A DNA stretch of 64,000 bases from a virus: positions 1 through 64,000 of the IMG/VR virus record IMGVR_UViG_3300021197_001793; one strand, 5' to 3'. The notes beneath the pieces are model-generated. The model was not told where the DNA came from. It saw only the letters and a program-made list of their open reading frames with translations, and did no database searches. Shown here piece by piece: positions 30,201 through 63,230 of the stretch (the first letter of the stretch is position 1; the number at the start of each line of letters is the position of its first letter). Position numbers and translations under genes: made by a program.

Positions 30201-31722
30201 GTTGGTTAGAAATGAAAAGCTACACTATTGTTATATAGACGAAAGAGATATTCAAATCTTCAAGGATAAGGGGTTTTTTACAAATACTCCTGCGTTAAGT
30301 TTTGGTGGCGGAAGAACAACAGTTAATACACTTAATAAAAATTCAGCAATTACAGTCAAAGATGTCGTTGAAGACGATAGTAAACCGTTAAATGAGCAAA
30401 CAACTAAGAAACAATTTTTAGACTCCTCTTTGACTGACCTTAATGAAACACTGTTGAGTCCAATGAGTACCCAAAAGTTTGTTACGTTTTTCTTTTTTGG
30501 GGACCTAATGCACACTGTGATGGATTGTATGAAGGACCCGGGCTCGGGGCCTCCTTATACTCTTTATCCTCAATTTAAAAAAACAAAAATAATTTTATCT
30601 TCATTTGATTATGTTGATCACCTTTTTAATGATAAGAACGTAAATTTATCGGAGATTCCAATTTCAACTGAATATTTTTTTGAATGGATGAACCAAAATG
30701 TTATTAAACCTAAAAGAAAAACATACCCTCTAACGTACTTTATGAGAGACTTATGCAATAAATTAATTGCTAACCTAATGTTGGAACAGTGTATAAACAG
30801 GAGTCCAGTGAAAACACTTAGTTTTAAAACTGTTAATTTACTAGGTGTTGTTGACGAGGCGGACGAGCCAGATCCATTCTTAGCTATGAATAAATTGGCT
30901 GGCTCTGGTCATATTAACCTAGGCGATGCTCACGCAAACCAAAGAGGGTTGCCGTTGCGTGGAAACATTGGCAATAGATCACTGAACCACGCATATAATT
31001 ATATTGCAATTTATCCTGTTTCCGATAACCAAAAGTATAGCGGAACTGGTAATTTCTTTGAAGATGGAAAGAGAGGTATTTATCACTTTAGTATTGGCAG
31101 CAACAAAGGTATTGTAAAAACAATAAAATTTTCCAAGACAGACATTCAATATATTAGAGAGGCAAGATTTTTTAATCATGGTCACGATGGCCTTATGCAA
31201 TTGAGTGCAGTTTATAAAGTAACTCTTGAGATGTTTGGTAACACGATATTTTATCCGGGCATGCTTATTTTTATTGACCCAAGAGAGCTAGGAGGGTCAG
31301 ACTTTGATCCAACAAAGGGCCAATCCCACGCAAAAGGTCAATCTGTTGCGAATGCATTGGGTATAGGCGGATATCACTTGATTACAAGGGTCACTTCAAA
31401 CCTTGAGTCTGGTAATTTTACTACGACTGTTGAAGCGCAATTTGTATATTCCGGAGACGGAACCCAAAGTAGCATACACGGGAACAAAACAAAAGAAGTA
31501 ATAACGGTAAATATAGAAGATTCAAACCAAGTAGGGCAAGGCGTTCTGAATTCATGTAACAAAATTACACAAATCTATGAACAAGTATTAGAGTCGGGGA
31601 ACCTTGGTACCACATCCTCTGGTTTGAAATCTATTGCTGGTGCTTCTGATGCCGATAAAGATAAGGCGATAGCAAAAAATGCTGTTAATAACAGTGTAAT
31701 CCCTCCAAAAGGTAGCCCATAA
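27289..31722 (+). CDS. Giant baseplate-associated protein of unknown family (1477 aa)
   Basis: The ATG at 27289 overlaps the gp53-like stop. It is the largest gene in the window. It has no signal peptide, no long coiled coil and no repeats that I can see. The sequence looks globular and acidic to neutral, with several Trp/Tyr-rich blocks (FFFGDLMHTVMDCMKDPGSG near residue 1065; NYIAIYPVSDNQKYSG near 1240). The final 200 residues include FYPGMLIFIDPRELGGSDFD and GIGGYHLITRVTSNLESGNF, a pattern like the last beta domain of hub proteins that bind the tail tube. Position suggests a baseplate wedge or hub scaffold, perhaps a fusion of parts separate in T4. Family unknown. Confidence 0.6.
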   Translation: MSTLFEYISSAINDPYGQDGTDDGTISRNKWADYAANGSKYDLFGPEDQAALNSWSDWILNHLKVPITHVLNDYTRLQIGQVGTVVRAFLNKMLSEKYASQSYFDSSMSAGNNVWTEDGIRFLERMLESTKVGFSSTNTNHPFVAGDLVTYFFLFGKLSESQYIAINGEGGIGGSYIYSNQGVRFVLRYSPSNDKILTERAARVVAMWEKYKGGDSIGEGSSRKLENLGWDIARFRKEATQEANIIVKGKIKLSSGETYLVNADPQALVNGAKLQGNTALPYIDWVTPVGSKSLPKVPEHSIEKGFTSWIKTHNWPELKMNVNIHETVAVAGSREPSVIEKAVVDGSKTDNMMRKVRIELIDIDSQLNGSHAWHFTLDETNGSTYKKLQKKAKKIAFVKLQGLGPQGPGRGFVPQPDGMPTDSDPTILGNSYLSIIEDLGKWWGMPLFAGNEGITTDAGSWFTVLAKIGDPKGKDNPLNIADNAWYRLKHVLQECGTGNHADQKAYGLGNAALKSDEDLLKEAIGSAGYVMAFQFLYYSAMSEVIELAQLIYELKGVELTDDKINEILDKALKADSTAMSDGAGASALEEEKDVPADIDERQVFLRQCALLMNMDVMKRACQAEFRKAVDPNTYNDRIWTVDVDNTHKRTDIINFLTAAPYKTIGAFLELTPELQACLVPKIRFFKVFNEKNNKDNIKEVEFSFPFRYDDNDSNYRLKNNGIVFRGGGSGIKSFSFSFEGTSPATARNDITAELSLFFQDFADLLKYRSGDDLFSDKGKSDKFRYIDMLLLPGNKVNPSKDSENADSLYEHYAAFNATDHRIRADVGWVIRDDKLFRNLVKNRGLAEIVKTKTKKGTKEDILNLINQALENINKSYYLNMVDHNIDFLDDGSVELKVNYRAWLESATKQNNLDAMLSPELAKDRLAMTKDYNKVMEDKICEKGDDLQELIGTFNAIEVEYMKRAHQSIIERLVRNEKLHYCYIDERDIQIFKDKGFFTNTPALSFGGGRTTVNTLNKNSAITVKDVVEDDSKPLNEQTTKKQFLDSSLTDLNETLLSPMSTQKFVTFFFFGDLMHTVMDCMKDPGSGPPYTLYPQFKKTKIILSSFDYVDHLFNDKNVNLSEIPISTEYFFEWMNQNVIKPKRKTYPLTYFMRDLCNKLIANLMLEQCINRSPVKTLSFKTVNLLGVVDEADEPDPFLAMNKLAGSGHINLGDAHANQRGLPLRGNIGNRSLNHAYNYIAIYPVSDNQKYSGTGNFFEDGKRGIYHFSIGSNKGIVKTIKFSKTDIQYIREARFFNHGHDGLMQLSAVYKVTLEMFGNTIFYPGMLIFIDPRELGGSDFDPTKGQSHAKGQSVANALGIGGYHLITRVTSNLESGNFTTTVEAQFVYSGDGTQSSIHGNKTKEVITVNIEDSNQVGQGVLNSCNKITQIYEQVLESGNLGTTSSGLKSIAGASDADKDKAIAKNAVNNSVIPPKGSP

Positions 31723-32885
31723 TGTCAAATTTCCAAGCAACAAACAATTTTAGATTAACAAGGTTTGCATTTTACGAAAGACTTAGATTTAAATTATATG
31801 CTTATGAAAAAGTCAATCATAGCAATCTGAAAGACATCAATTTTTCCAGTCTCAATTTGTATGGAAAAGTTAATAATATTTATGACTCTGTTTATTTGGA
31901 TGAGGGAAAGATAAGCTATACTGCTGATAACAAGCCGGCTGCAAATTTCGTAGTTGCGGCTTTCAATAGTGTCTTGGAGCATTTTAAAAGGGCAAACAAT
32001 TTTGAAAGAATATCACCAGATGAAAAATATCTATCTGATCTGAGATGTTATGGTGGCTATATGAGCCCCATTGAACAATACAGCAATTATATTAATAGTG
32101 TTATGGAGCAGTATAATTTCAATTACCTAAAACACGACCAGATAAACAGCTTTAAAGATTATTTATCGCACTTGATACCCTATGCTAAGTTCTTGAGATC
32201 AGAGTTTCCCCTGACATTTTCTGGATGGCTTAGATCCAAAAGGTGCTCGCCTTTTGTAACAGGTCTGTGCTTGAATATTTCAAATGATAATTTTGGTGAT
32301 GATGTTGCTAAGGAAAGAGACTTTCTTCAAAGTCGTAATTTAAATTTTTATCTAGACACCTGCAAGTCTAGAGGATTTTATGTTGCAAAGTCAAATCCAA
32401 GTGTGTTAATAGCTGACATTAATTCTGCTCCTATGAAAGCTTTCATGTCCGAATTTGGTCTTGACAACTCGTTGTTTGCCACAGGATATAAATTAGCTTT
32501 TGAAAGAGACATGGAACTATTGACAAATAAGATTACAGAATACTATAACATGTTTATTAAGAATCGTCAAGTAATATTTAAACAAAAAATATCAAAAGAT
32601 AATAAATTATATACTAAAATAGAATATATTAATAATAATTATAATATTAATAATATAAATAATATAATATATAAATTATATATAAACATAAAAAACATTG
32701 AAGAAGATTATGTATATGGACAAGCAGATATTAATCATTTTATAAAAACAGCAAAAAACTTAGAGAAAAAGTTTGACAAAGAAAAAGCAATAAGTTATAT
32801 TAATATCAAGTTTCGTTCAACTTATGCATCAAAATACGGTGGGCTGAACTATTACAGTAAAAAATTTGATTCAATGGAGGATTAA
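31722..32885 (+). CDS. Hypothetical protein, AT-rich 3' part (387 aa)
   Basis: The ATG at 31722 overlaps the previous stop (TAATG) and the stop overlaps the next start in the same way, so it is co-translated between a baseplate gene and the polymerase gene. The first 290 residues are mixed, with many Tyr, Phe and Asn. Residues about 300-335 are a low-complexity run of Asn, Ile and Tyr encoded by nearly pure A/T (32580-32700). The end is a basic helical tail. No family recognised. By position it could be a virion protein, but the link is weak. Confidence 0.5.
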   Translation: MSNFQATNNFRLTRFAFYERLRFKLYAYEKVNHSNLKDINFSSLNLYGKVNNIYDSVYLDEGKISYTADNKPAANFVVAAFNSVLEHFKRANNFERISPDEKYLSDLRCYGGYMSPIEQYSNYINSVMEQYNFNYLKHDQINSFKDYLSHLIPYAKFLRSEFPLTFSGWLRSKRCSPFVTGLCLNISNDNFGDDVAKERDFLQSRNLNFYLDTCKSRGFYVAKSNPSVLIADINSAPMKAFMSEFGLDNSLFATGYKLAFERDMELLTNKITEYYNMFIKNRQVIFKQKISKDNKLYTKIEYINNNYNINNINNIIYKLYINIKNIEEDYVYGQADINHFIKTAKNLEKKFDKEKAISYINIKFRSTYASKYGGLNYYSKKFDSMED

Positions 32886-34078
32886 TGGTATTTCAAATAC
32901 TTGACGACAAGGAAAGATGTTTCGGTATCTACAGAAATGGAGAATTTATTTATGATCGTGTCCCACATAACGTTACCGGCACTTGGAGTTGGCATCCTAA
33001 CCTCTCTGATTCTGCTATTAGTTTTGCAGATATTTACACTGGTGGGCAATCAATTGATGAGGTTTGCCCTGAACACCTCAAAACAAGATTCGACAAAAGA
33101 GAACAAAAAATAAAAGCGTTTATCAAATCAGCAGTCAAATCAAAAATAAATATTGATGATTACTGCCTGTTTAATATAGTCCCAGAGCAACACCTTCGAC
33201 ACTATTGCGAAGTCAAAAATGAAATATGCGAATGGGTCTTCGAACATTATGAAAGACCAGATAATCATGATTTTATAGTCGATCTTAAAAACATGTCCGC
33301 AGAGATCTCACGAAGACCTGTATTAATAGACCAAGAACGCCTCTTAAGACACTCCCACAATGATATGAAGGCTAAGTCACTACGTAACTTCTTAAGTGGC
33401 CAAAACAAGCCGATTTTGTATGATGTGTGGGGCTCTAGAACTGGCCGGTTGGCAACAAAAACGGGATCATTCCCAATCATGAATTTGAAGAAGGAGATGG
33501 CTGATGTTGTGATTCCAAAAAACAACATATTTGTACAGTTCGACTTAAATGGTGCGGAGATTAGAACTCTATTGTCCTTATCTACTGGTACCCACCCCCG
33601 TGAGGACGTACACGAGTATAATATTAAGAACGTTTATAGAGGAATTGGAACAAGAGAGAAAGCGAAGAAGAGATTCTTTGCATGGCTCTACAACCCAAAT
33701 GCACAAGATCACTTAACAGAGCGGTTTTATAATAAGACCAAAGTGTTGAAGAAGTTTTATAGTCGTGGCGAGGTCTACACTCCATTTGGGAGAAAGATAC
33801 AAACCGATGACTTTCACGCCCTCAATTATTTATTACAGAGTACATCATCGGACAATTGTATGATGCAATGCGTAAAGATAAATAAGTTTCTGAAACACAC
33901 GAATTCATTTGTTCATTCTGTGATACATGATTCGTTGACAATTGATCTCGATTTAAAGGATCGACACTTACTACCACAGATTCAAGAGATATTTGAAGAC
34001 ACCCAACTTGGGTGGTTTAAGTCTTCGACTCATGTCGGTCATAATTTAAAAGATATGTTGGAGGTATCATGGTCTTAA
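32885..34078 (+). CDS. DNA polymerase I family (A), polymerase domain only (397 aa)
   Basis: The ATG at 32885 follows ATGGAGGAT. The three family A motifs are visible. Motif A is FVQFDLNGAEIRTLL (residues about 217-231), with the metal-binding Asp and the Glu-x-Arg. Motif B is the helix around RGIGTREKAKKRFFAWLYN (about 257-275). Motif C is VHSVIHDSLTID (about 339-350), with the His-Asp pair. It lacks the 3'-5' exonuclease domain and is under half the length of E. coli Pol I. A split family A polymerase is known from the distant T4 relative RM378, where the exonuclease is a separate gene; none is seen here. A DnaE polymerase is encoded at 52395. Confidence 0.82.
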   Translation: MVFQILDDKERCFGIYRNGEFIYDRVPHNVTGTWSWHPNLSDSAISFADIYTGGQSIDEVCPEHLKTRFDKREQKIKAFIKSAVKSKINIDDYCLFNIVPEQHLRHYCEVKNEICEWVFEHYERPDNHDFIVDLKNMSAEISRRPVLIDQERLLRHSHNDMKAKSLRNFLSGQNKPILYDVWGSRTGRLATKTGSFPIMNLKKEMADVVIPKNNIFVQFDLNGAEIRTLLSLSTGTHPREDVHEYNIKNVYRGIGTREKAKKRFFAWLYNPNAQDHLTERFYNKTKVLKKFYSRGEVYTPFGRKIQTDDFHALNYLLQSTSSDNCMMQCVKINKFLKHTNSFVHSVIHDSLTIDLDLKDRHLLPQIQEIFEDTQLGWFKSSTHVGHNLKDMLEVSWS

Positions 34079-34899
34079 TAGGAATAGGAACCGCAGGTCA
34101 GAATCTTATAAAAGAATTCGGAAATTATCATAAAAAGATTTTCATAACAGCAAAAGACTTTCCAAACACCTGCAAAAAGACAGAAGATTATGAGCAACAA
34201 TGCCCTGACTTTTCTGATCGTTTAAAATTTGAGGATGACAAATGCTGGGTTGCTCTTTGCGGAGCAGGGAAAGTAGCAGGATGTACCTTGAGAGTCTTGG
34301 AGAGCATTAAACATAAAAAAATAAATATTATATATGTATACCCCGATACTACATTGTGCAATTCAATGCAATTAAAGAGAAATAAAGTACTAAACAGCGT
34401 ATTACAGGAGTACACAAGGTCTGGACTGTTTAATAAAATGTATTTATTCTCTAATAAAAATGTTTTGGAAATAATTGGTGACCAACCAATCACGGAAATG
34501 TATAGCGCTATTAACAAACAGATTGCAAACTCATTGGAAACCCTCGAATGGCTCAAAACACAAGACCCCGTCATGGGATCAGAGCACGAAGCAAAAAGCG
34601 TTTCACGAATTTGTACCCTATCAGTCGGTGATCTTAAGAAAGATGAAGAAAAGATGCTTTTTCCGCTTGACAATATTACTGAAGCGAGTTATCTTTATAG
34701 TGTAAGCAAAAAACAGTTGGAGAGTGATAAAGATATGCTAAATAAAATAAAGGAAAAAATAATGAAAGATGAAGAAATAAAAATTGTATCATCGTTTGCC
34801 ATCTATCCTTCTAAGCATAACCAATCATTCTTTTATTCTTTGAAACTTACACACTATATTCAAGAAAAAAATAAAAAAGTTCTTGACAAGATATGGTAA
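34069..34899 (+). CDS. Tubulin/FtsZ-superfamily-like protein, divergent (276 aa)
   Basis: The ATG at 34069 overlaps the polymerase gene by 10 nt and follows GGAGGTATC. The fold-level pattern is that of tubulin-like GTPases: a first strand with glycine turn, LIGIGTAGQN (3-12); then VALCGAGKVAGC (61-72) in the place of the GGGTGTG loop, followed by the helix TLRVLESIK; then strand IIYVYPD (87-93); then a helix, a strand ending FSNK (125-130), and helix ITEMYSAINKQIANSL (141-156). The Gly-rich loop is degenerate (GAGKVAG), so GTP binding may be altered. FtsZ- and TubZ-like proteins form filaments; jumbo phage PhuZ centres the nucleus. A link to phage DNA positioning is only a hypothesis. It could also be another Rossmann-like fold. 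Confidence 0.5.
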   Translation: MVLIGIGTAGQNLIKEFGNYHKKIFITAKDFPNTCKKTEDYEQQCPDFSDRLKFEDDKCWVALCGAGKVAGCTLRVLESIKHKKINIIYVYPDTTLCNSMQLKRNKVLNSVLQEYTRSGLFNKMYLFSNKNVLEIIGDQPITEMYSAINKQIANSLETLEWLKTQDPVMGSEHEAKSVSRICTLSVGDLKKDEEKMLFPLDNITEASYLYSVSKKQLESDKDMLNKIKEKIMKDEEIKIVSSFAIYPSKHNQSFFYSLKLTHYIQEKNKKVLDKIW

Positions 34900-35135: not shown

Positions 35136-35390
35136 ATGTCTAATACTTACACACAATACACTGGTACTTTCACAAAAGCTGACGGCTCAACACGTACAAT
35201 GAACTTTGTTAAGCCACAAGATCTGCCTTATGCGCATTTTTCTACTAATCAGCGTAAAACACAAGTGTCACGTGATGGTAAAACCCAAGTCGTATGGGAT
35301 GTTGATAACAAGTCTTTTAGACGATTCAATACATCTACGCAAATCGGCCAAATGACCGAATCAAAAGTCCAAATTACATTTGGCAGTTAA
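35136..35390 (+). CDS. Small protein, Sm-like SH3 barrel (WYL_2/DUF2693-like) (84 aa)
   Basis: The ATG at 35136 follows ATAGGAGTTAAAT. The sequence YTGTFTKADGSTRTMNFVKP, then VVWDVDNKSFRRFN, has the beta pattern of a small phage family described as an Sm-like SH3 barrel (F-x-K-x-D-G-x-x-R-x-M, then V-x-D-x-x). Members occur widely in T4-like phages; their function is not established, but nucleic acid binding has been suggested. It is the first gene after the strongest sigma70 promoter in the window and should be made early and in large amount, followed by a hairpin and gp32. Confidence 0.6.
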   Translation: MSNTYTQYTGTFTKADGSTRTMNFVKPQDLPYAHFSTNQRKTQVSRDGKTQVVWDVDNKSFRRFNTSTQIGQMTESKVQITFGS

Positions 35391-35482: not shown

Positions 35483-36250
35483 ATGGCTATAAATTTAGAT
35501 TTAATGAGAAAGAAACTTGGAGTTTCTCAAAACAACGGTAAAGAACAAGATAATACCAAGTGGCGCCCTAGCGAAGGCGACCAAACAGTACGACTCCTCC
35601 CGGCAGCGGACGGAGACCCTTTCAAAGAATTTCATTTCCACTATAACGTGGGAAAAAACCCCGGTATTCTTTGTCCTAAGCGCAATCATGGAGAAGATTG
35701 CCCGATCTGTGACTTTGCATCTAAACTCTGGCGAGAAGGTGTAGAGCGTAATGACGATACCTCAAAGCGAGAGGCTAAAAAGCTATTTGCTCGAAAGCGA
35801 TACTATTCTCCTATTATAGTTCGTGGTGAAGAGAGCAAAGGTGTGAGAGTTTGGGCTTACGGCAAAACCGCCTATGAGACTTTACTATCCTACGTCCTTG
35901 ATCCAGACTATGGCGACCTCACACACCCGGAGACCGGGACTGACATTGTATTGACTTACACTGTTCCCGGTACTCCCGGATCATTCCCAAAGACGGCTTT
36001 AAAGCCTCGTCGCAGACCTTCTGTTTTATGTGATGATGCTGTAGCTGACTGTGATGATTTAATAAGCTCGATTCCTGAGATCGAAGGCCTCTTCCAGCGG
36101 CGTACTACTTCCGAAGTTCAAGCCATACTGGATGAATACCTGTCCTCCGATGTTACCTCAGAAGGCCTCTCCAAGGAGTCTGAGCGCTACAATAGTAACA
36201 AAAGTACTGTTGATGATGCTTTAAAGAATTTCCTTAATCAAGGAAGTTAA
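35483..36250 (+). CDS. Single-stranded DNA-binding protein, T4 gp32-like (255 aa)
   Basis: The ATG at 35483 follows CAAGGAGACAAAC. Residues 26-80 show the gp32 core start (KWRPSEGDQTVRLLPAADG) and the zinc site: His51 or His53, Cys64, Cys73 and Cys76 in HFHYNVGKNPGILCPKRN, then CPIC. In T4 the zinc ligands are His64, Cys77, Cys87 and Cys90. The aromatic and basic patches after it (FARKRYYSPIIV) fit the OB fold. It coats single strands during replication and recombination. Its C-terminal tail is acidic, the region by which T4 gp32 contacts partners. It is next to UvsX, as expected for a recombination module. Confidence 0.9.
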   Translation: MAINLDLMRKKLGVSQNNGKEQDNTKWRPSEGDQTVRLLPAADGDPFKEFHFHYNVGKNPGILCPKRNHGEDCPICDFASKLWREGVERNDDTSKREAKKLFARKRYYSPIIVRGEESKGVRVWAYGKTAYETLLSYVLDPDYGDLTHPETGTDIVLTYTVPGTPGSFPKTALKPRRRPSVLCDDAVADCDDLISSIPEIEGLFQRRTTSEVQAILDEYLSSDVTSEGLSKESERYNSNKSTVDDALKNFLNQGS

Positions 36251-36311: not shown

Positions 36312-38141
36312 ATGATAAAAGGTTACGACATTACAACACACAACGCAGAAGCAGTAGCTCATGTGATTAATAGTTTGGGTGTTGGTATTCCAATGGCTTT
36401 AACTCTTAGAGAGCTTGTAGTCAACGGTATAGAAGCATGTTTAAGAAATAACAGTGAAGAAGAAAAAGTTGTATATATTTGTAAGGACCATGTATATCCA
36501 AATAAACTAGCTGTCATAAATATAGGTGGTGATTTCTTGTCCGAAAAGACAATGAAAGAAAACTTAGCAACAATTGGAAACTCAGGAAACATGGGTATGA
36601 AAAGTGGAAAAGTTATTTTAGACAAAAACAAAGGCATTGGTGCCAAAGTTGCATATCTGCCAAACGCTAGTTGCGGCCTTGTGTATAGAAGCATTAAAGC
36701 ATACGAAGACTTGGGTATCATGGCACAGATGCGAAAAGACAAGGATCGTGCTGTGTATACACTGCCACCGTTCGAATGCCCTGTGACTTCTGAAATAACA
36801 GCATTTCCGATGTATGGTAATTTCACAGAATATGGAAAACCCAAAAATACTATAACTGAAGTTGTCTGTATGGGCGATCACGAAAGTGTAGATACATGGC
36901 ATGAGTTTGATTTTAAATGTGGAAAAAGAAAAGGCCAAGGAGATGGCGGCACCGGGTATGGAAACTTTCGCTATCTCACACATCGTCTCTGGCTCGAACC
37001 AGAAGTAGAAACAAAGGTGGCTATTTATTATAAAAAAACCGGAGCCTTTAAGGCGTGGAAGCGTGTTTCTGGACTGAAGGATTTCATGGAGAACATGACT
37101 CAAATTAACGGAGTAGTTGATGTTAGCGTTAATGGATTAGCAGCAAAAGCGCACTGGTGTGTTCTATCTTCAGCCGGCGAAGCCAAATATAGTTCGAACT
37201 GGGCAGCATCCGGTAAAACGGCCTTTGCATGGAAAGGTGAAACATACTCAGATTTTACTCAACACATTCTTTCCAAGAAGAAAGATCTCAACCAGAGTGG
37301 TATCATAGTCAATTATGACAAAGTCATGATTATTTTTGAGTTCGACTCCAGTGTGCAATTAAAAACAAATCCCGGTAGAACTCAATTATACTATAAAAAT
37401 CCGACAATTAATGAAGATCAGTTAATTGATAAAGCACTGTTTCATGAACAATTTAGACTCAATATGCCAAAAGAACTAAAAGATTGGCAAGAAGAAAACC
37501 AGTCCAAATCTGAAGATGATAAAGATATAAAGAAATATATTAAAAACATGCTAAAACAATACCATTTTGGTTCTAAAAAGTCAAACTTAAATAATAATGT
37601 TCCTCCTGTTAATATTCCTCCTGTGAGCAAGAATAATAACAAGAATAAGTCCGGTAAGAAAAATCAAACATCAAGATCTGGCAATCCGCCAAGTACGGCC
37701 CCAAAGCAGATAACTTATATTAGCAAGTTAAAAACAATGAGGCCACCAGACATAACATTTTTAGATGAACCTAACGCACCGCTCGTGGAGCTACATTGTA
37801 ACGGGTCTCAATTTGAACTTTGTGTGAATATAGGTTCATCCGTATTTGCACACCGGCTTGAAAAAACAGAGAAAGCATTTGGTAGCCCGTGTTTAGTAAG
37901 AGACTATATCAAGCACCTTGTTAAGCAGGAAATATCAGCAGCAGCAGTATTAAGAGTTTTTGATATATATGTTTCTCACAGCAACCTTTCTCTAGAAGAG
38001 AAAAAAACATTTTGGGAACCAAAGTGTCTAGAATCTTGCTGGTCTAGACAGACTGAAAGTGAAATTTTGAAAAAAGCAAAATCCAAAAATAAACAAGCTA
38101 TTTTACTAAATTCAAACATAGATATTGCCGCTGCTAAATAA
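36312..38141 (+). CDS. GHKL-type ATPase protein (609 aa)
   Basis: The ATG at 36312 follows ATAGGGGAAAAT. Residues 30-120 contain the three GHKL (Bergerat) boxes: LRELVVNGIEA (32-42) with Glu34 and Asn38; INIGGDF (69-75) as the G1 box; and NKGIGAKVAYL (106-116) as the lid box. Such folds occur in gyrase B, MutL, Hsp90, histidine kinases and phage T4 rIIA. The rest is unknown. A Lys/Asn/Ser/Pro linker (residues about 415-475) separates the ATPase from a C-terminal domain with LVELHCNGSQFELCVNIGSS. No topoisomerase catalytic Tyr domain or histidine-kinase transmitter is seen. T4 rIIA is a possible analogue, but its sequence is not similar by eye. It lies between gp32 and UvsX. Confidence 0.62.
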   Translation: MIKGYDITTHNAEAVAHVINSLGVGIPMALTLRELVVNGIEACLRNNSEEEKVVYICKDHVYPNKLAVINIGGDFLSEKTMKENLATIGNSGNMGMKSGKVILDKNKGIGAKVAYLPNASCGLVYRSIKAYEDLGIMAQMRKDKDRAVYTLPPFECPVTSEITAFPMYGNFTEYGKPKNTITEVVCMGDHESVDTWHEFDFKCGKRKGQGDGGTGYGNFRYLTHRLWLEPEVETKVAIYYKKTGAFKAWKRVSGLKDFMENMTQINGVVDVSVNGLAAKAHWCVLSSAGEAKYSSNWAASGKTAFAWKGETYSDFTQHILSKKKDLNQSGIIVNYDKVMIIFEFDSSVQLKTNPGRTQLYYKNPTINEDQLIDKALFHEQFRLNMPKELKDWQEENQSKSEDDKDIKKYIKNMLKQYHFGSKKSNLNNNVPPVNIPPVSKNNNKNKSGKKNQTSRSGNPPSTAPKQITYISKLKTMRPPDITFLDEPNAPLVELHCNGSQFELCVNIGSSVFAHRLEKTEKAFGSPCLVRDYIKHLVKQEISAAAVLRVFDIYVSHSNLSLEEKKTFWEPKCLESCWSRQTESEILKKAKSKNKQAILLNSNIDIAAAK

Positions 38142-38156
38142 TTTAAAGGAGAAATA

Positions 38157-39236
38157 ATGGGAGAACTACTAAAAATGAAAACAGGAAAAATTAATGTTGC
38201 TGATCTTGCAAAGAAGATCAATAAGAAATTAGGAATTGAGGTCGCTCATGACCTTAATAACTCAGATCCGGTATCCGTAAAGGATTGGATTCCAACCGGA
38301 TCAAAGTGGCTGGACTTAATCATAAGCCCGGGCAAAGAAGCGGGAATCCCTGTCGGAAAGATTACTGAATTGGCTGGCTTGTCTGGTTCTGGTAAGTCTT
38401 TCATGGCAGCGCAGATAGCTGCAAGGGCTCAAGAGAAGGGTATGCTTGTTGTATACTTTGATGCTGAGTCTGCTATCGACACCAGTTTCCTTGAGAAAGC
38501 AGGGTGTAAAAAAGATGCTCTTCTCTACTCTCAAGCTATTAGTGTTGAGAAGGTGTTAAGTCAAATTGAGTATATCATGAATGAATACAGCGAAGCTAAG
38601 GTTCTGTTCATATGGGATTCGGTTGCTGCTACTCCTTCGGAAAAGGACTTGGAAGGTGACTTCAATCCTCAGTCTTCCATGGCGGTTAAGCCAAGAATTT
38701 TTGCGAAAGCATTTCCGAAACTTACAATTCCTTTGGCTAACACCAACTCAACGCTTCTATTAATAAACCAGTTGAAGACCAATATATCTTCAAATCCAAT
38801 GATGGCTCTCGTTGAACCATTTATTGCTCCCGGTGGAAAAGCAATTGAATACTTTAGTTCATTACGTATTTGGCTTACAAAGCGCAAAGCAAAAAAATCT
38901 TTTGCTATTGATGATGAAGGAACAAGAATCGGCTCACATGTTAAGTGTGTAATACAAAAATCCCGTTTCGGCTCCGAAGGTAGAAATTGTGAATTTAAAA
39001 TTATGTGGGGTAATGAAATTGGAATTCAAGATGAAGAGTCTTGGTTAGAGATCCTCAAGCGCTCAAAGACACCTAATTTTAGCGTTACTGGTGCTTGGTA
39101 TACTCTTGTACCAAAAGAGGGTAAACCTTTTAAATTTCAGTCAAAACAGTGGATTGATAAATTAAAAGACGAAAAATTTAGAGATGCCGTAATTCATTTG
39201 TTGAATGAGGTTATGGTAGAAAAATATAAATCATAA
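38157..39236 (+). CDS. uvsX: RecA-type recombinase, T4 UvsX-like (359 aa)
   Basis: The ATG at 38157 follows AAAGGAGAAATA. Residues 45-160 hold the RecA core: PTGSKWLDLI, then Walker A GLSGSGKS (74-81), VVYFDAESAI and Walker B VLFIWDSVAATP (149-160, Asp154). It continues with the loop L1/L2 area (NQLKTNISSNPMMALVEPFI, then PGGKAIEYFSSLRI), which binds DNA. Length is near T4 UvsX (391 aa) and RecA. It pairs homologous strands for recombination-dependent replication, with gp32 encoded two genes upstream. A terminator at 39266 ends the unit. Confidence 0.93.
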   Translation: MGELLKMKTGKINVADLAKKINKKLGIEVAHDLNNSDPVSVKDWIPTGSKWLDLIISPGKEAGIPVGKITELAGLSGSGKSFMAAQIAARAQEKGMLVVYFDAESAIDTSFLEKAGCKKDALLYSQAISVEKVLSQIEYIMNEYSEAKVLFIWDSVAATPSEKDLEGDFNPQSSMAVKPRIFAKAFPKLTIPLANTNSTLLLINQLKTNISSNPMMALVEPFIAPGGKAIEYFSSLRIWLTKRKAKKSFAIDDEGTRIGSHVKCVIQKSRFGSEGRNCEFKIMWGNEIGIQDEESWLEILKRSKTPNFSVTGAWYTLVPKEGKPFKFQSKQWIDKLKDEKFRDAVIHLLNEVMVEKYKS

Positions 39237-39342: not shown

Positions 39343-39777
39343 ATGAGTTATAGAGATACATCAAATCAATCAGGCGATATTAGCGAAATGACTATTAGGC
39401 TTGATTTAATTAAAAAGGGATACGTAGTTTTAGAACCATCATCAAGAGATTGTGTTTATGATATTGTTGTCGACAGAGATGGCACTTTTGAGACAATTCA
39501 GTGTAAAACAATGCAGAGCAATAGCATAGCAAAAATTGTAGATCGATCAAATGAAGTTGTGTGTGCTGGTGGAAAAGTGAGAAATTCACTCGATTATGCA
39601 GAACACGGTGTTAATTGGCTGGCCGGATGCCATAAGAAAACAGGTGAAATATATTATTATAAACTTGAAACATACGCTGCGATTGACAAAAAGTCGTTCA
39701 GTGTTTTGAAACACCCACAAGATGGATTTCCATCACGCAATGTTCCAAATCGACACGCAAAGGGAGGTGGCAAATGA
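39343..39777 (+). CDS. PD-(D/E)XK nuclease-fold protein (144 aa)
   Basis: The ATG at 39343 follows TAGGAGGATAAT. The order GDISEMTIRLDLIKKGYVVL, YDIVVDRDG, FETIQCKT is the core of PDDEXK endonucleases: Glu15 on the first helix, Asp40 (YDIV), then Gln53-Cys-Lys55 in the E-x-K position. Many archaeal Holliday-junction resolvases and phage nucleases of this size share it. The Gln instead of Glu is seen in active members. Cleavage of branched DNA would suit its place between UvsX and the 5'-3' exonuclease; this is inferred. The stop overlaps the next ATG (ATGA). Confidence 0.68.
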   Translation: MSYRDTSNQSGDISEMTIRLDLIKKGYVVLEPSSRDCVYDIVVDRDGTFETIQCKTMQSNSIAKIVDRSNEVVCAGGKVRNSLDYAEHGVNWLAGCHKKTGEIYYYKLETYAAIDKKSFSVLKHPQDGFPSRNVPNRHAKGGGK

Positions 39778-40772
39778 GACCAACAACACCAATAGAAGAT
39801 AATAAGAGAGTATTAATAATCGATGCATTGAATATGTTTTTAAGAGCATACACAATCATCCCAAGTATGAACCCGCAAGGTCTCCCAAACGGGGGCACAA
39901 TAGGATTTATTAAATCAATGCAAAAGCTCTGTAGGAACTTCAGACCACATGAAGTTATAATTTGCTGGGACGGGCACGGAGGATCTGAAAAGCGCAGACA
40001 AATGAATAAGAACTACAAGGCTGGACGAAGACCGGTTAGGTTCAACCGTAGAATGATAGAACTACCCGAGGACCAAGTTAAGAAGAACAGAACAGATCAA
40101 CAATTGAGGTTGCATGAGTATTTAAATAATATGCCAGTTATTCAGTTGATGATCGACTTTGTTGAAGCAGATGATATCATTGCACTTGTTTGTAAAAACA
40201 AGAAGTACGCTGATTACAACAAAATAATTGTATCATCTGACAAAGATTTTTATCAATTACTGGGCGATGAGAATGTTTTCATACATAGGCCATCAGCCAA
40301 AGAACCAAGAGACCCAGATTACCTGATTAATGGCAAAATGCTTTTACATAAAGAGGGCATTCACCCAAATAACTACGCTTTGGCTAGAGCAATCGACGGA
40401 GACAAATCAGATAACCTTGAAGGCGTACCTAGAATTGGAATGAAGACGATTAAAACAAATTTTCCGATCTTAGAACAAGCAAAACAACTTACGTGCGACG
40501 AGCTTTTTGTCTACTGCAAAATGCAGATGAAGCAAAAAAGCTGCCATAAAAAGTTGCTCGAATATCAAGAACGTGTTAAGTTAAATTATCAAATAATGCA
40601 GTTATATGAATCAAATATTTCTCACAATGGGAGGAGGGGTATAGATTATACACTAGATAACTTTGAGCATGGGTTTGATAAGCTAGAACTACAAAAAATG
40701 CTTATAGCAGATGGACAGGGACATTTAAATTTATCTGATTTATGGGTTGCTTTTAAAATTTTAAAATCATAG
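39774..40772 (+). CDS. 5'-3' exonuclease/RNase H, FEN family (332 aa)
   Basis: The ATG at 39774 overlaps the previous stop and has GGGAGGTGG before it. The FEN metal-binding acids are visible: Asp17 (LIIDALNMFLR), Asp66 (ICWDGHGG), Glu131/Asp133/Asp134 (VEADDIIAL), Asp156/Asp158 (VSSDKDFYQLL) and Asp208/Asp210/Asp213 (IDGDKSDN). GVPRIGMKT (217-225) forms the helix-hairpin-helix that holds DNA. Length is near T4 RNase H (305 aa), which removes RNA primers from Okazaki fragments. A PolA lacking its own 5' nuclease makes this separate enzyme necessary. Confidence 0.9.
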   Translation: MRPTTPIEDNKRVLIIDALNMFLRAYTIIPSMNPQGLPNGGTIGFIKSMQKLCRNFRPHEVIICWDGHGGSEKRRQMNKNYKAGRRPVRFNRRMIELPEDQVKKNRTDQQLRLHEYLNNMPVIQLMIDFVEADDIIALVCKNKKYADYNKIIVSSDKDFYQLLGDENVFIHRPSAKEPRDPDYLINGKMLLHKEGIHPNNYALARAIDGDKSDNLEGVPRIGMKTIKTNFPILEQAKQLTCDELFVYCKMQMKQKSCHKKLLEYQERVKLNYQIMQLYESNISHNGRRGIDYTLDNFEHGFDKLELQKMLIADGQGHLNLSDLWVAFKILKS

Positions 40773-40790: not shown

Positions 40791-42149
40791 ATGGAATTTA
40801 AACAGGATACATTTCAAAAATTTGGTAAGAGCTTTCAAGAAGACTTGTGCCATCTAATGCTACAAGACAGGACTTTTTGTGATCAGATAAGCGAGGTTCT
40901 TAACGTAGAATTTATTCAATATGAGCATTTGCGTATATTCATAACCATGCTGGTTGAATATCGGGAGAAATACCGTCAGCATCCATCATATGAGACAATG
41001 GCTACCATTATTACCTCGGAGGTGGGGAAATATACAGAAGCCCTGAAGAAACAGATAACCTTATTTTATTCAAAAGTAATCAACAATAGTGAGATTGAAA
41101 GTACACAGTTCATTAAAGATCATGCTATTGATTTTTGCAGAAAACAGGTGTTAAAGAAGGCCATGATACAGTCTGTTAAGTTACTTAAGTCATCTTCATT
41201 TGAAGAAATACAGAAAGTTATTGAGGATGCAATGAAATTGGGAACCAATGTTGACTTTGGCCATGACTGGCACATGGATATTGATGAACGATATCGTATG
41301 AAATCTCGTAATCCAATTACCACTGGCTGGTCTCGGTTTGATGAGATTACTCAAGGCGGCTTCGGCCAATCAGAGCTTGGTGTTGTTATTGCACCAACCG
41401 GAGCAGGCAAGTCAATGGCTCTTGTTCACATTGGAGCAACTGCACTAAAAGAATCAAAAACAGTTATTTATTATACATTAGAGCTAGCAGAGACAGTAGT
41501 TGGGCAGAGGTTTGATTCTTGTATCACAGATATTAAGCTGAACGATTTGTTAAAGAATAAGCATAATGTGTCCAATAAGTTAAAAGAAATAAAGGGGCAC
41601 CTAATTATTAAGGAATATCCAAGTAAGTCAGCTTCCACACAAACAATTAGAAGTCATGTTGAGCGCTTGAAAAAGCGAGGCATTGTACCTGATATGATCA
41701 TTGTCGATTACGCAGACCTACTAAAACCAGTAAGGTCACAGGGTGAAAAGAGGCACGAATTGGAAAGCATCTACGAAGAATTAAGAGGCATCGCACAACA
41801 GGAAAAATGCGCTATTGTTACTGCAAGTCAGACAAATCGAGGCGGGTTAAATGCAGAAGTTATCACGATGGAATCAATCTCAGAGGCTTTTAGCAAGTGT
41901 TTCGTTGCAGACTTTATCTTTTCGCTATCCAGAACGCCAAAAGACAAGCAAGCAAATACCGGTCGTGTTTTTATCGCCAAGAACCGTAACGGCCCTGATG
42001 GATTGGTATTTCCGATCTTCGCAGATTGGTCTAACGTGACAATGAAGGTCCTTGAAAAAACAGACCATGAAGAAGATAAGCCGGAGATGTCTTCAAAGGA
42101 TAATTTAAAGTTTTTAAAAGAAAAATACGCACAGTCAAGAGGAAAATAG
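40791..42149 (+). CDS. Replicative DNA helicase, DnaB/T4 gp41-like (452 aa)
   Basis: The ATG at 40791 follows CGGAGGACAAC. The N-terminal 150 residues are helical like the DnaB N-domain (FQEDLCHLMLQDRTFCDQIS). The RecA-like domain has TTGWSRFDEITQGGF, Walker A APTGAGKS (201-208), YYTLELAE (228-235), Walker B MIIVDYADLL (302-311, Asp306) and IVTASQTNRGG. It forms a ring that unwinds DNA 5'-3' ahead of the fork. A primase gene is not seen nearby, so it may lie outside the window. Followed by NrdJ after 10 bases. Confidence 0.92.
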   Translation: MEFKQDTFQKFGKSFQEDLCHLMLQDRTFCDQISEVLNVEFIQYEHLRIFITMLVEYREKYRQHPSYETMATIITSEVGKYTEALKKQITLFYSKVINNSEIESTQFIKDHAIDFCRKQVLKKAMIQSVKLLKSSSFEEIQKVIEDAMKLGTNVDFGHDWHMDIDERYRMKSRNPITTGWSRFDEITQGGFGQSELGVVIAPTGAGKSMALVHIGATALKESKTVIYYTLELAETVVGQRFDSCITDIKLNDLLKNKHNVSNKLKEIKGHLIIKEYPSKSASTQTIRSHVERLKKRGIVPDMIIVDYADLLKPVRSQGEKRHELESIYEELRGIAQQEKCAIVTASQTNRGGLNAEVITMESISEAFSKCFVADFIFSLSRTPKDKQANTGRVFIAKNRNGPDGLVFPIFADWSNVTMKVLEKTDHEEDKPEMSSKDNLKFLKEKYAQSRGK

Positions 42150-42159
42150 GGGGTAAAAC

Positions 42160-44019
42160 ATGAGTGTAGCAAATAAAATACTATCAGATATAACCGTACA
42201 TATGAAGTACGCCAGATACATACCAGAAAAGAATAGAAGAGAAAATTGGGAGGAGCTAGTAACACGCAATAAAGCGATGCACCTCAAAAAATTTCCGGAG
42301 CTAGTTTCTGAAATCGAGAATGCTTACAAATTTGTATATGACAAGAAGGTATTACCTTCAATGCGTTCAATGCAATTTGCGGGCAAACCAATTGAAATCA
42401 GCCCAAATAGGATTTTTAATTGTGCGTATGCACCAATAGACGACCATCGTGTATTCGGTGAAATTATGCTTTTGTTGCTTGGTGGAACCGGAGTCGGATA
42501 CTCGGTACAGAGACACCATGTGGAGAAATTGCCCTCCATCTTAAAACCAAATACCAAACGTGCTAGGCGCTTTTTGATTGGCGATTCAATTGAAGGGTGG
42601 TCTGATGCTGTTTGTGCACTAATGAAGTCGTATTTTAAGGGAACGTCTAAACTACGTTTTGATTTTTCTGATATTCGTGCAAAGGGTGAGCGCTTGGTTA
42701 CAAGCGGCGGTAAAGCACCGGGACCACAACCTCTCAAGGAGTGTTTAATAAAAGTTGAGGGTATTCTTGACTCAAGAGAAAACGGAGACAAATTAACAAC
42801 AATCGAAGTTCATGATATCATTTGTCATATAGCAGATGCTGTATTAGCTGGCGGGATTCGTCGTGCTGCGCTTATATCACTGTTTTCAATTGACGACGAA
42901 GAAATGCTTGCCGCAAAGAGCGGTAATTGGTGGGAAAAGAACCCACAAAGAGGAAGAGCAAACAATTCAGTTGTTATTATGAGACACAGAGTTAAAAAAG
43001 CAGACTTCTTTAAATTATGGGAAAGAGTAAAAGCATCAGGAGCCGGAGAGCCCGGTTTTTACTTTACTAATGACAAAGAGTATGGATGCAACCCGTGTTG
43101 TGAGATAAGCTTAAGGCCATACCAATTCTGCAATTTAACCGAAGTTAATGTAAGTGATGTAGAAGATCAAGAAGAGTATGAAGCAAGAGCCAGAGCAGGA
43201 TCGCTCATAGGCACCCTACAAGCCTCATACACAGACTTTCATTACCTCAGGCCAGTGTGGCAGCGGAACACCGAAAAAGACTATTTAATAGGCGTTTCCA
43301 TGACCGGAATAGCATCTGGTAAAGTGTTGGAGCTAGATATGGAAGCAGCAGCCCTTGCCGTTAAAGAAGAGAATGCAAAGATCGCAAAAATAATTGGAAT
43401 TGGTCCGGCTTCTCGTTGTACAACTGTAAAACCAGCAGGCACTACGTCTCTAACTCTCGGAACATCAAGTGGAATTCATGCTTGGCACAATGATCACTAC
43501 ATTCGCAGAATAAGAGTTGGAAAAAACGAGGCAATCTATTCATATCTTCTCAATAATCATCCGGAACTGGTCGAAAATGAGTTCTTTAGACCGCATGACA
43601 CCGCTGTTATCTCTGTGCCGCAAAAAGCTCCAAATGGGGCGATTACAAGGTCAGAATCAGCAACAGAATTATTAGAGCGTGTAAAGAAGGTCGCAACCGA
43701 ATGGGTTGTCTCAGGACACAGAAAAGGCCAAAATACAAACAATGTCTCAGCCACCATCACAGTTAAACCAGATGAGTGGGTTACCGTTGGAGACTGGATG
43801 TGGAATAACAGAAAGCACTATAACGGCCTCTCAATACTGCCATTTTCGGACCATACCTACAAACAAGCACCATTTGAAGATTGCTCTTCGGACCAATTTG
43901 AGGAAATGATGAAAACCCTTGTAAATATTGATTTGGACGAAGTATCGGAAAATGAAGACAATACAGACCTCTCAGGAGAGATTGCTTGTGCCGGTGGAGC
44001 GTGCGAATTAGAATTCTAA
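42160..44019 (+). CDS. nrdJ: Ribonucleoside-triphosphate reductase, class II B12-dependent (619 aa)
   Basis: The ATG at 42160 follows AGGGGGTAAAAC. It reduces ribonucleotides to deoxyribonucleotides with adenosylcobalamin. Diagnostic residues are present: Cys88 (FNCAY) and Cys324 (QFCNLTEVN), the active-site disulfide pair; Cys313/Glu315 in NPCCEISL, the thiyl-radical site; and PAGTTSLTLGTSSGIHAWH near residue 427. The C-terminal CAGGAC (Cys610/Cys615) is a redox shuttle like that of the Lactobacillus enzyme. At 619 aa it is a short, monomeric form as found in marine phages. It needs cobalamin from the host. It pairs with ThyX and dUTPase in the window to supply dNTPs. Confidence 0.92.
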   Translation: MSVANKILSDITVHMKYARYIPEKNRRENWEELVTRNKAMHLKKFPELVSEIENAYKFVYDKKVLPSMRSMQFAGKPIEISPNRIFNCAYAPIDDHRVFGEIMLLLLGGTGVGYSVQRHHVEKLPSILKPNTKRARRFLIGDSIEGWSDAVCALMKSYFKGTSKLRFDFSDIRAKGERLVTSGGKAPGPQPLKECLIKVEGILDSRENGDKLTTIEVHDIICHIADAVLAGGIRRAALISLFSIDDEEMLAAKSGNWWEKNPQRGRANNSVVIMRHRVKKADFFKLWERVKASGAGEPGFYFTNDKEYGCNPCCEISLRPYQFCNLTEVNVSDVEDQEEYEARARAGSLIGTLQASYTDFHYLRPVWQRNTEKDYLIGVSMTGIASGKVLELDMEAAALAVKEENAKIAKIIGIGPASRCTTVKPAGTTSLTLGTSSGIHAWHNDHYIRRIRVGKNEAIYSYLLNNHPELVENEFFRPHDTAVISVPQKAPNGAITRSESATELLERVKKVATEWVVSGHRKGQNTNNVSATITVKPDEWVTVGDWMWNNRKHYNGLSILPFSDHTYKQAPFEDCSSDQFEEMMKTLVNIDLDEVSENEDNTDLSGEIACAGGACELEF

Positions 44020-52394: not shown

Positions 52395-55300
52395 ATGAAA
52401 ATAGCAACTGTGGTCTTGTACATAAGGCCCTCAAACAATTCTTATGATGGTTTCATCAACAAACAGGGAGAGAGCATATCCTGCTTCCCAATAGAGCATT
52501 TAAATACAATAGGGTTCAATCAGAAAGATATTGACGAAGTAACAGTGGACTGGAAAAGCGACTCTAAGACACACAGGGACGGGTGTTTTGAATATAAAAT
52601 AACTGTCAATGCTGGTGCAGTCTCTACCAAAGAACAAGAAGAGCTTTCTAATAAGTATATGAATGAAATATTGAGATGTCGAATGTCAATGGGAACACGA
52701 ACAAAGCAAAGTAAAATAAGGTTTGTTGGACTCCATGCTCATTCTGGTGTTGGTTCGCCATTCGATGGCTTCGGCTATCCCCAAGATCACATGGAGTATG
52801 CATACGATAATGGGTGCAAAGCTCTTGCATTAACAGACCATGGCAACATGAACGGAACAGCCTATCAAGTTCTTCATGCTAAAAAGATGAAACAACAAGG
52901 TAAAGACTTTAAGCCTATTTTTGGAGTTGAGGCATATTTTATTGAGGACGTTGTCGACTGGCGCAAAAAATATGAAGAGCACAAAGCGGACAAGGTAAAG
53001 GCCAGACGTTTATCAAAAGAACAATCAGGCACGACCATTGAAGCAGAAGGCGAAACCAAGTCAAAAGGGTCTGAGCTAAACAGATCTAGACATCTTGTCC
53101 TCTTGGCAATGAACCAAGAAGGGCTAAATAACATATATAAAATGATTTCCGAATCATACACAGATAAATACTATTACAGAAAACCGAGGATTGATTATGC
53201 ACTACTTGAAAAATATAACAGCGGCGTTATTTGCCTTTCCGCTTGTCTTGGCGGTGTTTACGCTGGTTGCTACTGGTCTAAGCGTGAAGAAGGTGAAGAA
53301 GCTGTACTGGAATGTATGCGGGAAGCCACCAGAAGAATGGTCTCGATCTTGGGCGACCGTTGGTACGGAGAACTCCAGTGGAACAACGTCCCAGAGCAGC
53401 ACGATCTCAACAAGTATGTAATACAAATGCACAAAGAGTTTGGAATCAAGCTGGTATCAACAGCGGACTCTCATTACCCAGATCCGGACTCTTGGAAGGA
53501 TAGAGAACTATATAAAAGACTAGGCTGGCTTGGGCGTGGTAAACCCGAGTGGCTTGACATGAACCTTCCCACCTCTGTTCAAGAGATGGAGTATGAACTC
53601 TATCCAAAGAATGGAGATCAAATGTGGGAGGCATACCAAAAATATTCAACTGAAACAGGAGTAAAATATGAAGATGAACTTGTTCTTCGCAGTATCGAGG
53701 AAACTCACAGAATTGCTTTTGATCGGATTGAAGGATTTTATCCTGATGATACCGTTCGTTTACCTAACTTTGTGGTTCCTGCTGGATATACTGCCGACGA
53801 TTATCTTGGACGGATAGCTAGCGAGGGTTTATTTTCCTTGCTAAAGCTAAACTATCCTTTGATTTTCAGCAAGAAAACTAAACACAAACAGGACAGTAAG
53901 ATCACAGAGTACAAGGATCGCCTAGATCATGAACTCAAAGTCATTGCAGACCGAGGCTTTTCAAAATACTTTTTAACAATGAAAGCTATCGTCGACAAGA
54001 CCAATGAGATTCAGTTGGCCGGTCCGGGTCGAGGTTCCGCTGCTGGTTCTTTGGTTGCTTATGCTCTGGGAATCACACAGGTTGACCCGATAAAATATGG
54101 ACTCCTGTTCTCTAGATTCCTAAGAGCAGACGCCAAAGACTACCCAGATATTGATTATGATGTGTCAAATCCTATGGCCCTCAAAGAGAAACTCATTGGA
54201 GATTGGGGTGACAACGTGGTTGTTCCCATTTCAAACTTCAGTACGCTTCAGTTGAAGAGTCTCATTAAAGATGTGTCAAAGTTCTATGATGTCCCATTCA
54301 TGGAAGTGAATGCAGTAACAAACAAAATGTTATTCGAAGCTATGCCGCTAGCAAAAGCCAAACATGGTATCAAAGCAGGCGTGTATAATCCGACATTCGA
54401 GGAAGTTATCGAGTTTAGTGAATCGCTCCAAAATTTTTTCCAAAACCATCCACAAATTAAGGAACATGTCTTGGGATTGATAGGATCAGTGCGTCAGGTT
54501 TCCCGACATGCAGGTGGAGTTGTGATCGGAGAAGACCTTGACAAGTATATGCCGCTCATATCAAGCAAGCATGTACGCCAAACTCCATGGTCAGAAGGCC
54601 AGAACGTAAGACAATTGGAGCCAATGGGCTTCATCAAGTTTGACTTGCTTGGCTTATCTACTCTCCGTATGATTGAAGATTGCATTGGGTCAATCCTCAA
54701 AAGACACCACGGAGTTGAAGAGCCGAGCTTCGCAGACATTAAAGCTTATTATGACTCACATTTGCACCCGGACGTGGTAAACTTACATGATCAAAATGTT
54801 TATGAAAATATTTTTCACAAGGGTAAATGGGTTGGCATATTCCAGTTTGCAGAGCATGGAGCGCAAAAGTTTGCTCAACAAGCAAAACCAAGATCAATCA
54901 TTGATATTTCGGCTATTACATCAATCTATCGCCCGGGGCCTTTATCGGCGGGTGTAGACAAGTCATTCGTGGAAGCAAAAGAAAACCCAGACTCTATTTC
55001 TTATGTCAACGATACGATTCGCTCGATCACAGAGGAAACACAGGGGTTCCTTATTTTTCAAGAGCAGATAGCCATGTTAGCCCACAAGCTCGGCAAGAAC
55101 GTGACTCTTGATGAAGGAAACTTGCTTCGCAAGCTACTTACTAAGAAGGGAACAGGTAAGGGCCATGAGGCAAAAGAAGCGATATACGACAAGTTCATCG
55201 AAGGATGTCTGGAGGGAAAAATACCTCGAAAGACAGCGGACAAGCTATGGACAACTTTTGAATACTTTTCAGGCTATGGCTTTAATAAGTCTCATGCCGT

Positions 55301-61664: not shown

Positions 61665-63230
61665 ATGAACAGATTATTCAGTAAAGGTTACGAACTGAAT
61701 TCAAAAATTCTTGAAGGTATTAATAAGTTAGCAGATAATGTTGCAACTACCCTCGGCCCTAAAGGCCGCAACGTTATTCTGTTTCACAAGGAGCAAGGAG
61801 TCCCCGTTATCACCAAAGATGGTGTGACGGTTGCTAAGTTTGTGGAACTTGAAGATCCTTTCGAGAATGTAGGAGCGCAGATTGTGAAGCAAGCCGCAGA
61901 GCAATCAGCAACTAAGGCTGGTGATGGTACAACAACTGCCACCGTCCTTACGAGGGCAATTCTTCAACGAGCGCAGAAGTACCTGACCGCAGGTGTGTCC
62001 CCCATAGAAATTAAGCGTGGCATGGACAAAGCATGTGATGCAATTATTGAAAGACTGAAGGAAATCGCCATCCCTGTCAGGTCTGAAAAAGACATTCGAC
62101 ATATCGCAACTATCTCAGCAAACAATGATAAATCTATTGGTCAGTTGATATCCACAGCAGTTGACTCTGCTGGTAAGGATGGCTCTGTACTCGTTGAAGA
62201 AGCTCGCTCCCTTAAAACTAGTCTCGATCTAATCGAAGGATTCAGGTTTGATTCGGGCTACTTGTCTTCAACCTTTATCAACAACGAGAGAAATGGGACA
62301 ATTGAGTATGATAATCCACTTATCGTGGTCACCGATGAAAAGATTGAAACAATCGAACAGATTCTGCCCACACTGGAGCTAGCTGCTCGTGATAACCGAC
62401 CGCTCTTAATTGTAGCAGACATGGAAGGTCAGGCATTGGCTGCTGTTATAGCTAACGCTGTTCGAGGCACAATGAAGATTGTTGCTGTAAAGCCTCCCCG
62501 GTATGGAGAGGAGCGAAGGAACATATTGAAAGATATCTGCTCCTCCACTGGTGCTACGTTTATCACACGTGAAAATCAACTTCAACTAAAACAGGTGCAA
62601 CTTACACACTTCGGCCAATCCAAGTCTATTTCTATTAACAAAGGTTGGACTACGATGGTCGGAGGCAAAGGTGACTACGAAGGGATTGATAGAAAGATTG
62701 AAGCCCTTAAGGTGGAGATCAAAGACACTGAATCCCTTAAAGAGTGTGAAAGGATACAAGAGAGAATCACACGCCTTGCTTCCGGGGTCGCTGTTATTAA
62801 AGTAGGTGCAGCCACAGAAATAGAAATGATAGAAAAGAAACACAGAATTGATGATGCTTTAGAAGCCGTAAGGTCTGCACAAGAGGAGGGCATTGTAGCT
62901 GGTGGCGGTATCGCTTTGTTGCGATCTTCATCCAACCTACATGTAGAAACAGAAAACGAAGAACAGTCGATTGGAGCCAAAATTATTCTTGATGCTGTTG
63001 AAGAACCTTTGCGTCAAATGGCTATAAACGCCGGAAAATCACCCGATCTTATTGTAGATAGGGTAAGGCGCCTCGAAACAAATTGCGGCTATAATTTCAT
63101 GAATGACAGCGAAGTAAACATGCTTGATTCAGGTATTGTAGACCCAGCAAAGGTAACTCGCTGCGCTCTTCAGAATGCCGTATCGGTCGCCTCTACCTTG
63201 ATTACAACCAGTCACGCTATTGTATCATAG
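61665..63230 (+). CDS. groEL: Chaperonin GroEL-like (521 aa)
   Basis: The ATG at 61665 follows TTTGGAGGAAAA. Key parts are conserved: [12 protein letters not shown] (28-39), [17 protein letters not shown] (84-100) with Asp87 of the ATP site, [15 protein letters not shown], and [14 protein letters not shown] in the C-terminal equatorial domain. The apical domain (residues about 185-370) is less conserved. It is shorter than E. coli GroEL (548 aa) and lacks the GGM-rich C-terminal tail. It folds phage and host proteins; the head protein of T4-like phages needs such help. The phage GroES-like gene is 17 kb away, with its own promoter. Several large phages encode groEL; having both parts in one phage is less common. 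Confidence 0.93.

Follow-up and report, generated by a model that had tools for sequence, protein, structure and literature searches.

The locus examined here raises the question of whether a T4-type phage can encode a tubulin directly behind its DNA polymerase gene and, if so, what such a protein would do there. The gene, annotated from its open reading frame, translation, predicted fold and relatives, lies at positions 34069-34899 of the window, a 64,000-nt stretch that forms part of a 70,654-base IMG/VR virus record encoding a T4-type major head protein and a tail sheath; it is on the + strand, as are its annotated motifs and the 387-aa, polA, 84-aa, SSB, RecA, FEN, and helicase genes described below. 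An earlier note, made from the sequence alone, had described its 276-aa product as a divergent tubulin/FtsZ-like protein, and the motifs cited there are all present in the translation: LIGIGTAGQN at residues 3-12, GAGKVAG at 65-71, IIYVYPD at 87-93, and FSNK at 127-130. The proposed coupling to polA is borne out as well, with the first 10 nt of the reading frame lying inside the PolA-type gene (32885-34078) and a GGAGG ribosome-binding site (34060-34064) located within the end of polA, 4 nt 5' of the ATG. While the adjoining gene is indeed of polA type, it is not the sole polymerase gene, as the note had implied, since a Pol III alpha-type polymerase of 1274 aa, with PHP, alpha, finger, and HHH_6 domains, is encoded at 52395-56219 of the window as well. 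Homologues of 264-298 aa are found at the same position in all testable related contigs, and the tubulin-like gene is under purifying selection, with a dN of ~0.10-0.27, a dS of ~1.5 or more, and a dN/dS of ~0.06-0.12 against close relatives. On these two grounds, 34069-34899 is a real gene. Its last eight residues (269-276; 34873-34896) form a low-confidence tail, and the reading frame of the closest relative stops at YIQEKK.

Structure prediction with a fold search and a profile-profile comparison, both of which had been proposed as checks, place the protein among the tubulins. The AlphaFold2 model of the window protein, based on 65 homologues, reached a pLDDT of 93.0 and a pTM of 0.90, and its first Foldseek match in the PDB was TubZ (4ei7; E 3.9e-12, TM 0.75 on the query), with every one of the 50 PDB matches listed being TubZ, FtsZ, or CetZ. 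A distant member (L085, 30% identical), modeled from its own 20-sequence alignment, gave a pLDDT of 90.8 and a pTM of 0.90, and the 50 PDB matches listed for it were all FtsZ and TubZ (best E 2.3e-13). In both models, a Rossmann-like GTPase domain, a core helix H7, and a beta-rich C-domain make up a predicted tubulin fold. The nearest BFVD entry was an uncultured phage protein labeled 'FtsZ Cell division GTPase' (TM 0.76, 14% identity). At the level of sequence, hhalign matched a profile of 154 members (153 full-length members plus the window protein, after 90% redundancy removal) to 23 FtsZ sequences, from S1 through all of H7, at 84.5%, which taken alone amounts to modest homology. The score of 47.5 compares with 30.6 for the best of 120 column shuffles, 17.2 for the reversed profile, and 16.7 for a polymerase profile; with an earlier 65-member profile, 2 of 100 shuffles had equalled the real score. 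HMMER matches to the S6-H7 region of FtsZ were weak and fell in the same register as those of hhalign. The comparison with PhuZ of phiKZ and 201phi2-1, a profile of two sequences, gave 1.5%, and TubZ was compared by fold only. A match to nuclear transport factor 2, which topped the PDB profile search with a shallow alignment, was due to chance and was gone with a deeper one.

Searches with single sequences give no hint of this relationship. The window protein returned only noise from 50,697 phage records, Pfam, PHROGs, and PDB sequences, three further members had no match in the same phage records, and the family belongs to no Pfam or PHROG family. Weak, sub-threshold Pfam matches to TrkA_N and saccharopine dehydrogenase would agree with a protein of the plain Rossmann type, either nucleotide-binding or an oxidoreductase, that resembles tubulin through a GxGxxG turn, but they are confined to the N-terminal turn. 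In the Pfam search, no NAD(P)-binding (Rossmann oxidoreductase) family matched over the full length, the fold matches listed for two confident models all belong to the tubulin superfamily, the FtsZ profile match extends through H7, and the T6 and H7 asparagines are conserved; this possibility is largely refuted, and we give it only the slightest chance. With two AlphaFold2 models, the FtsZ profile match, and the conserved guanine-pocket positions in agreement, the window protein is almost certainly a member of the tubulin/FtsZ superfamily. As judged from models and profiles, its family is a new and strongly diverged one that had previously gone unlabeled.

The motifs that are kept and lost bear on how such a protein could work. 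The published roles are as follows: loop T1 serves phosphate and base binding, T2 and T3 the beta- and gamma-phosphate, T4 the alpha- and beta-phosphate, and T5 the ribose, while the T6 Asn contacts the base, H7 recognizes it, and T7 (GxxNxD) acts in hydrolysis on the neighboring subunit (PMC8456036). The T1 glycines, T5 proline, T6 Asn129, and H7 Asn149 are 94-100% conserved across the 154 members. Within the T1 loop (34075-34104), G5, G7, and G10 occur in 153-154 of 154, and P92, the T5 proline in the segment that also contains the modeled S5 strand (34327-34347), occurs in 145. N129 (152/154), in the S6 end and T6 loop FSNK (34447-34458), is the guanine-contacting Asn, corresponding to N165 of E. 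coli FtsZ, and is paired by hhalign with the FtsZ T6 Asn. N149 (152/154) lies in the modeled core helix H7 (residues 141-163; 34489-34557) and aligns in hhalign with the FtsZ H7 Asn/Asp base-pocket position. The family also has a newly described, near-invariant motif of its own at the end of H5, Q113-x-[YF]-x-R117-S118, which reads QEYTRSG (residues 113-119; 34405-34425) in the window protein, with Q113 and R117 present in all 154 members and S118 in 151.

Other hallmarks of the superfamily are missing. The T4 signature GGGTG[ST]G is found in none of the 154 members, whose loop typically reads GSGKVAG or GAGKVSA; in the window protein, the equivalent loop is CGAGKVAG (residues 64-71; 34258-34281), with G65 shared by 153 of 154. 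The Lys to which the earlier note had drawn attention is present in this loop, but K68 is carried by only 79 of 154 members, and its candidacy as a conserved functional replacement was dropped. The H7-S7 segment (34558-34608), where T7 and H8 would be expected, is free of helix in both models and contains no conserved acid. None of the T7 acids (GxxNxDxxD) is conserved at residues 164-180, where D..D occurs in 5 of 154 members as compared to N.DF in 20 of the 23 control FtsZ sequences, and helix H8 is absent from both AlphaFold2 models. The T2-T3 region is shortened, and in the modeled secondary structure of the C-terminal domain (S7-S8-H10-S9-S10; 34609-34863) a short strand takes the place of H9. 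This pattern suggests that guanine binding has been kept and that the classical activation of GTPase between subunits has been lost.

The protein might instead form a dynamic filament of the PhuZ/TubZ kind, which would move or center phage DNA by GTP hydrolysis with the aid of substitute catalytic residues. The window member's fold is closest to TubZ, and acids at E39 (97%), position 42 (acidic in 100%), and position 205 (acidic in 97%) could substitute chemically for the lost residues. Nonetheless, with no GGGTG[ST]G, no catalytic T7 loop, no H8, a shortened T2-T3 region, and no chimallin in 15 contigs, the classical mechanism is less likely. A classical dynamic GTPase filament is thus unlikely for this family, and the PhuZ/TubZ-like version with substitute residues is quite improbable. 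With two defining functional loops missing, the sequences give no support to the idea that the protein works like FtsZ, TubZ, or PhuZ.

The window family shares with FtsZ the two-domain fold, the T1 glycine loop, the T5 proline, and the T6 and H7 asparagines, whereas it lacks GGGTGTG, the T7 NxDxxD, H8, and H9, has a shortened T2-T3 region, and is only ~10-14% identical; FtsZ is encoded in a division cluster, the window family in a phage replication operon. TubZ, the best single fold match (4ei7) at 15% identity, keeps both the T4 signature and the T7 acids, and its gene lies in a partition cassette as opposed to the polA/SSB context seen here. PhuZ of the Chimalliviridae is likewise a phage-encoded member of the superfamily, yet it belongs to nucleus-forming phages that have chimallin and retains the T4 motif (PMC10299810). 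FtsZl1 and FtsZl2 (Makarova and Koonin, 2010) are earlier cases of cryptic families of the FtsZ-tubulin kind that have diverged strongly and whose filament formation is uncertain, but the two retain the GGGTG(S/T)G loop that is missing here, and it was by this loop that FtsZl2 was found (PMC2875224).

When ten contigs were scanned with Pfam Tubulin, the one with L084 proved to carry a further FtsZ-like gene, which represents a second family (P0003 type; L289-L368) in uncultivated T4-type phages. This family comprises at least 107 IMG/VR loci on contigs of up to 281 kb, as exemplified by L093 (1027-2121, - strand; Pfam Tubulin), and no match to it was found in cultured phages. Unlike the window family, to which hhalign relates it at 6.8%, it keeps canonical loops and is encoded elsewhere in the genome. 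All 16 members tested match Pfam Tubulin and carry both GGGTGS and FD[ST]KDL, a T7-like DxxD motif that hhalign sets on the T7 of FtsZ. Since the loops of this second phage family are recognizable, the absence of canonical loops in the window family is real. The two families co-occur in 5 of 14 second-family contigs, and the second tubulin was found in none of the 11 other window-family contigs tested, among them the window's own incomplete contig.

The phages that carry the window family are of T4 type. All 15 contigs tested contain a match to a T4-type major capsid profile. A sequence search that recovered chimallin from phiKZ, used as a control, found it in none of the 15, although a very diverged shell protein would escape such a search and several contigs are possibly incomplete. 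This agrees with the earlier placement of the phage outside the nucleus-forming group. Capsid similarity ranking, rather than a tree, suggests that the window belongs to the Far-T4 phages, a group for which the literature covered does not mention tubulin or FtsZ (PMC4360716; PMC7198788). For marine Far-T4 phages, the literature points to Bacteroidota as possible hosts (PMC7198788).

A search with the neighboring polymerase identified 15 IMG/VR loci, of which the complete ones have a homologue downstream, and two profile scans of IMG/VR confirmed at least 539 and at least 544 relatives in overlapping sets, that is, at least ~540 loci. Within this clade, members are down to 23% identical with one another. 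The nearest cultured relatives by capsid are Flavobacterium phage immuto, Microcystis phage Mel-JY01, and RM378, and the gene is absent from all three and was not found in two huge phages. Immuto and Mel-JY01 have the same polA-SSB-RecA-FEN-helicase order, with the slot filled by unrelated genes for proteins of 147-151 aa that bear no likeness to tubulin by sequence. Thus, this type of replisome as such can do without a window-family protein. One apparent cellular copy (L095; CP070664.1, a WOR-3 MAG chromosome) was dropped, as its phage replication block is flanked by two exact 100-N gaps. It is most simply read as a phage contig that was probably mis-scaffolded into a public genome, and therefore provides no host assignment.

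The gene order around polA is highly conserved. It begins with a conserved 387-aa protein (31722-32885) that has no family match and lies directly upstream of polA in related loci, and continues with the 397-aa PolA-type polymerase, in which D220, R257, K261, and D349 are invariant and no 3'-5' exonuclease domain was recognized. The tubulin-like gene is followed in many loci, as in the window, by a gene for a small conserved 84-aa protein (35136-35390; weak WYL_2/Sm-like match), and then by those for a gp32-type single-strand DNA-binding protein (35483-36250), a RecA/UvsX recombinase (38157-39236), a FEN-type 5'-3' exonuclease (39774-40772), and a DnaB-type replicative helicase (40791-42149). 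The window also encodes a PD-(D/E)XK nuclease (39343-39777), a ribonucleotide reductase (42160-44019), and a GroEL-type chaperonin (61665-63230). The slot between SSB and RecA (36312-38141 in the window) is hypervariable when compared with L001, L003, L005, L015, and L084. In the window, a 609-aa protein is encoded there; among relatives, the slot is either empty or filled by what looks like a GHKL-type ATPase, a ParB-like protein, a thioredoxin, or an FKBP-type isomerase. It has the look of a site for accessory, perhaps anti-defense, cargo.

The association also holds in loci fetched by their polymerase alone. The tubulin-like gene lies behind polA and ahead of the SSB-RecA-FEN-DnaB block in 88 of 88 testable loci; of the other five among the 93 in the scan, four are on contigs that end too soon and one (L016) has a polymerase too truncated for the profile, with the tubulin-like gene present. 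The median gap between polA and the gene is 4 nt, and the two overlap or lie within 20 nt of each other in 143 of the 215 loci having both. Pairwise identities of the window family and of polA are correlated (r = 0.81). Presence behind the polymerases of the clade and absence in the nearest cultured relatives make the gene specific to this uncultivated T4-type clade and, within it, an obligate part of the replication operon. Such gene order is evidence of co-regulation, short of physical association, and we infer that the protein is involved in phage replication.

What form this involvement takes is a more tentative matter. The best explanation, to which we give slightly less than an even chance, is a guanine-binding, GTPase-poor assembly or scaffold protein that organizes the phage replication site. 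A guanine nucleotide is most likely bound by the T1 loop and the asparagines of T6 and H7, all of which are retained. Superfamily members use the T4 signature, T7 acids, and helix H8 to build a head-to-tail interface, and it is this interface that sets off GTP hydrolysis; with these elements lost, hydrolysis is probably poor. Assembly may then be gated by nucleotide and slow or non-hydrolyzing, giving a stable oligomer or a short polymer held together by a new surface, for which the near-invariant QxYxRSG motif is a candidate. This assembly, together with the translationally coupled PolA-type polymerase, could organize or tether the phage replisome or newly made DNA.

An alternative possibility is that the protein acts, polymer-free, as a guanine-nucleotide-sensing accessory of the replisome, a monomer or dimer with GTP, dGTP, or ppGpp as ligand that would regulate the PolA-type polymerase or SSB. 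A conserved guanine pocket that has outlived the features for polymerization and hydrolysis would suit this role, as would the position of the gene, translationally coupled to polA and ahead of SSB, RecA, FEN, and helicase. However, coupling differs from contact, and we know of no member of the tubulin superfamily that serves as a guanine-sensing replisome accessory; on balance, we consider this role rather unlikely. It is also imaginable that the protein antagonizes host division as a decoy, attaching to host FtsZ filaments or capping them because it mimics one end of an FtsZ subunit yet is unable to activate hydrolysis, so that division is blocked during infection. An FtsZ fold with an altered bottom face, lacking T7 and H8, is compatible with this idea, and a subunit without T7 could join one filament end only. 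Yet the gene resides in a core replication operon and not among early host-takeover genes, and its obligate presence across a clade with identities down to 23% fits a core function better, which leaves an antagonist improbable.

In the literature covered, phage tubulins have been characterized as PhuZ, in jumbo phages that form a nucleus, and as TubZ, in partition systems; here, a tubulin gene is part of a replication operon and not of a partition or positioning module. It is possible, though we consider it doubtful, that a hydrolysis-free tubulin has become obligate for the phage replisome or replication site, as a structural or regulatory component, across a large uncultivated T4-type lineage; if true, this would give the tubulin fold a hitherto unknown role. 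In any case, the superfamily is extended to a large T4-type clade in IMG/VR that lacks the signature used in earlier family searches, and the co-occurring canonical tubulin suggests that phage cytoskeletons are more common than cultured phages show. The window gene can serve as a marker for this phage lineage, and its family constitutes a natural test of the tubulin fold without the chemistry of T4 and T7.
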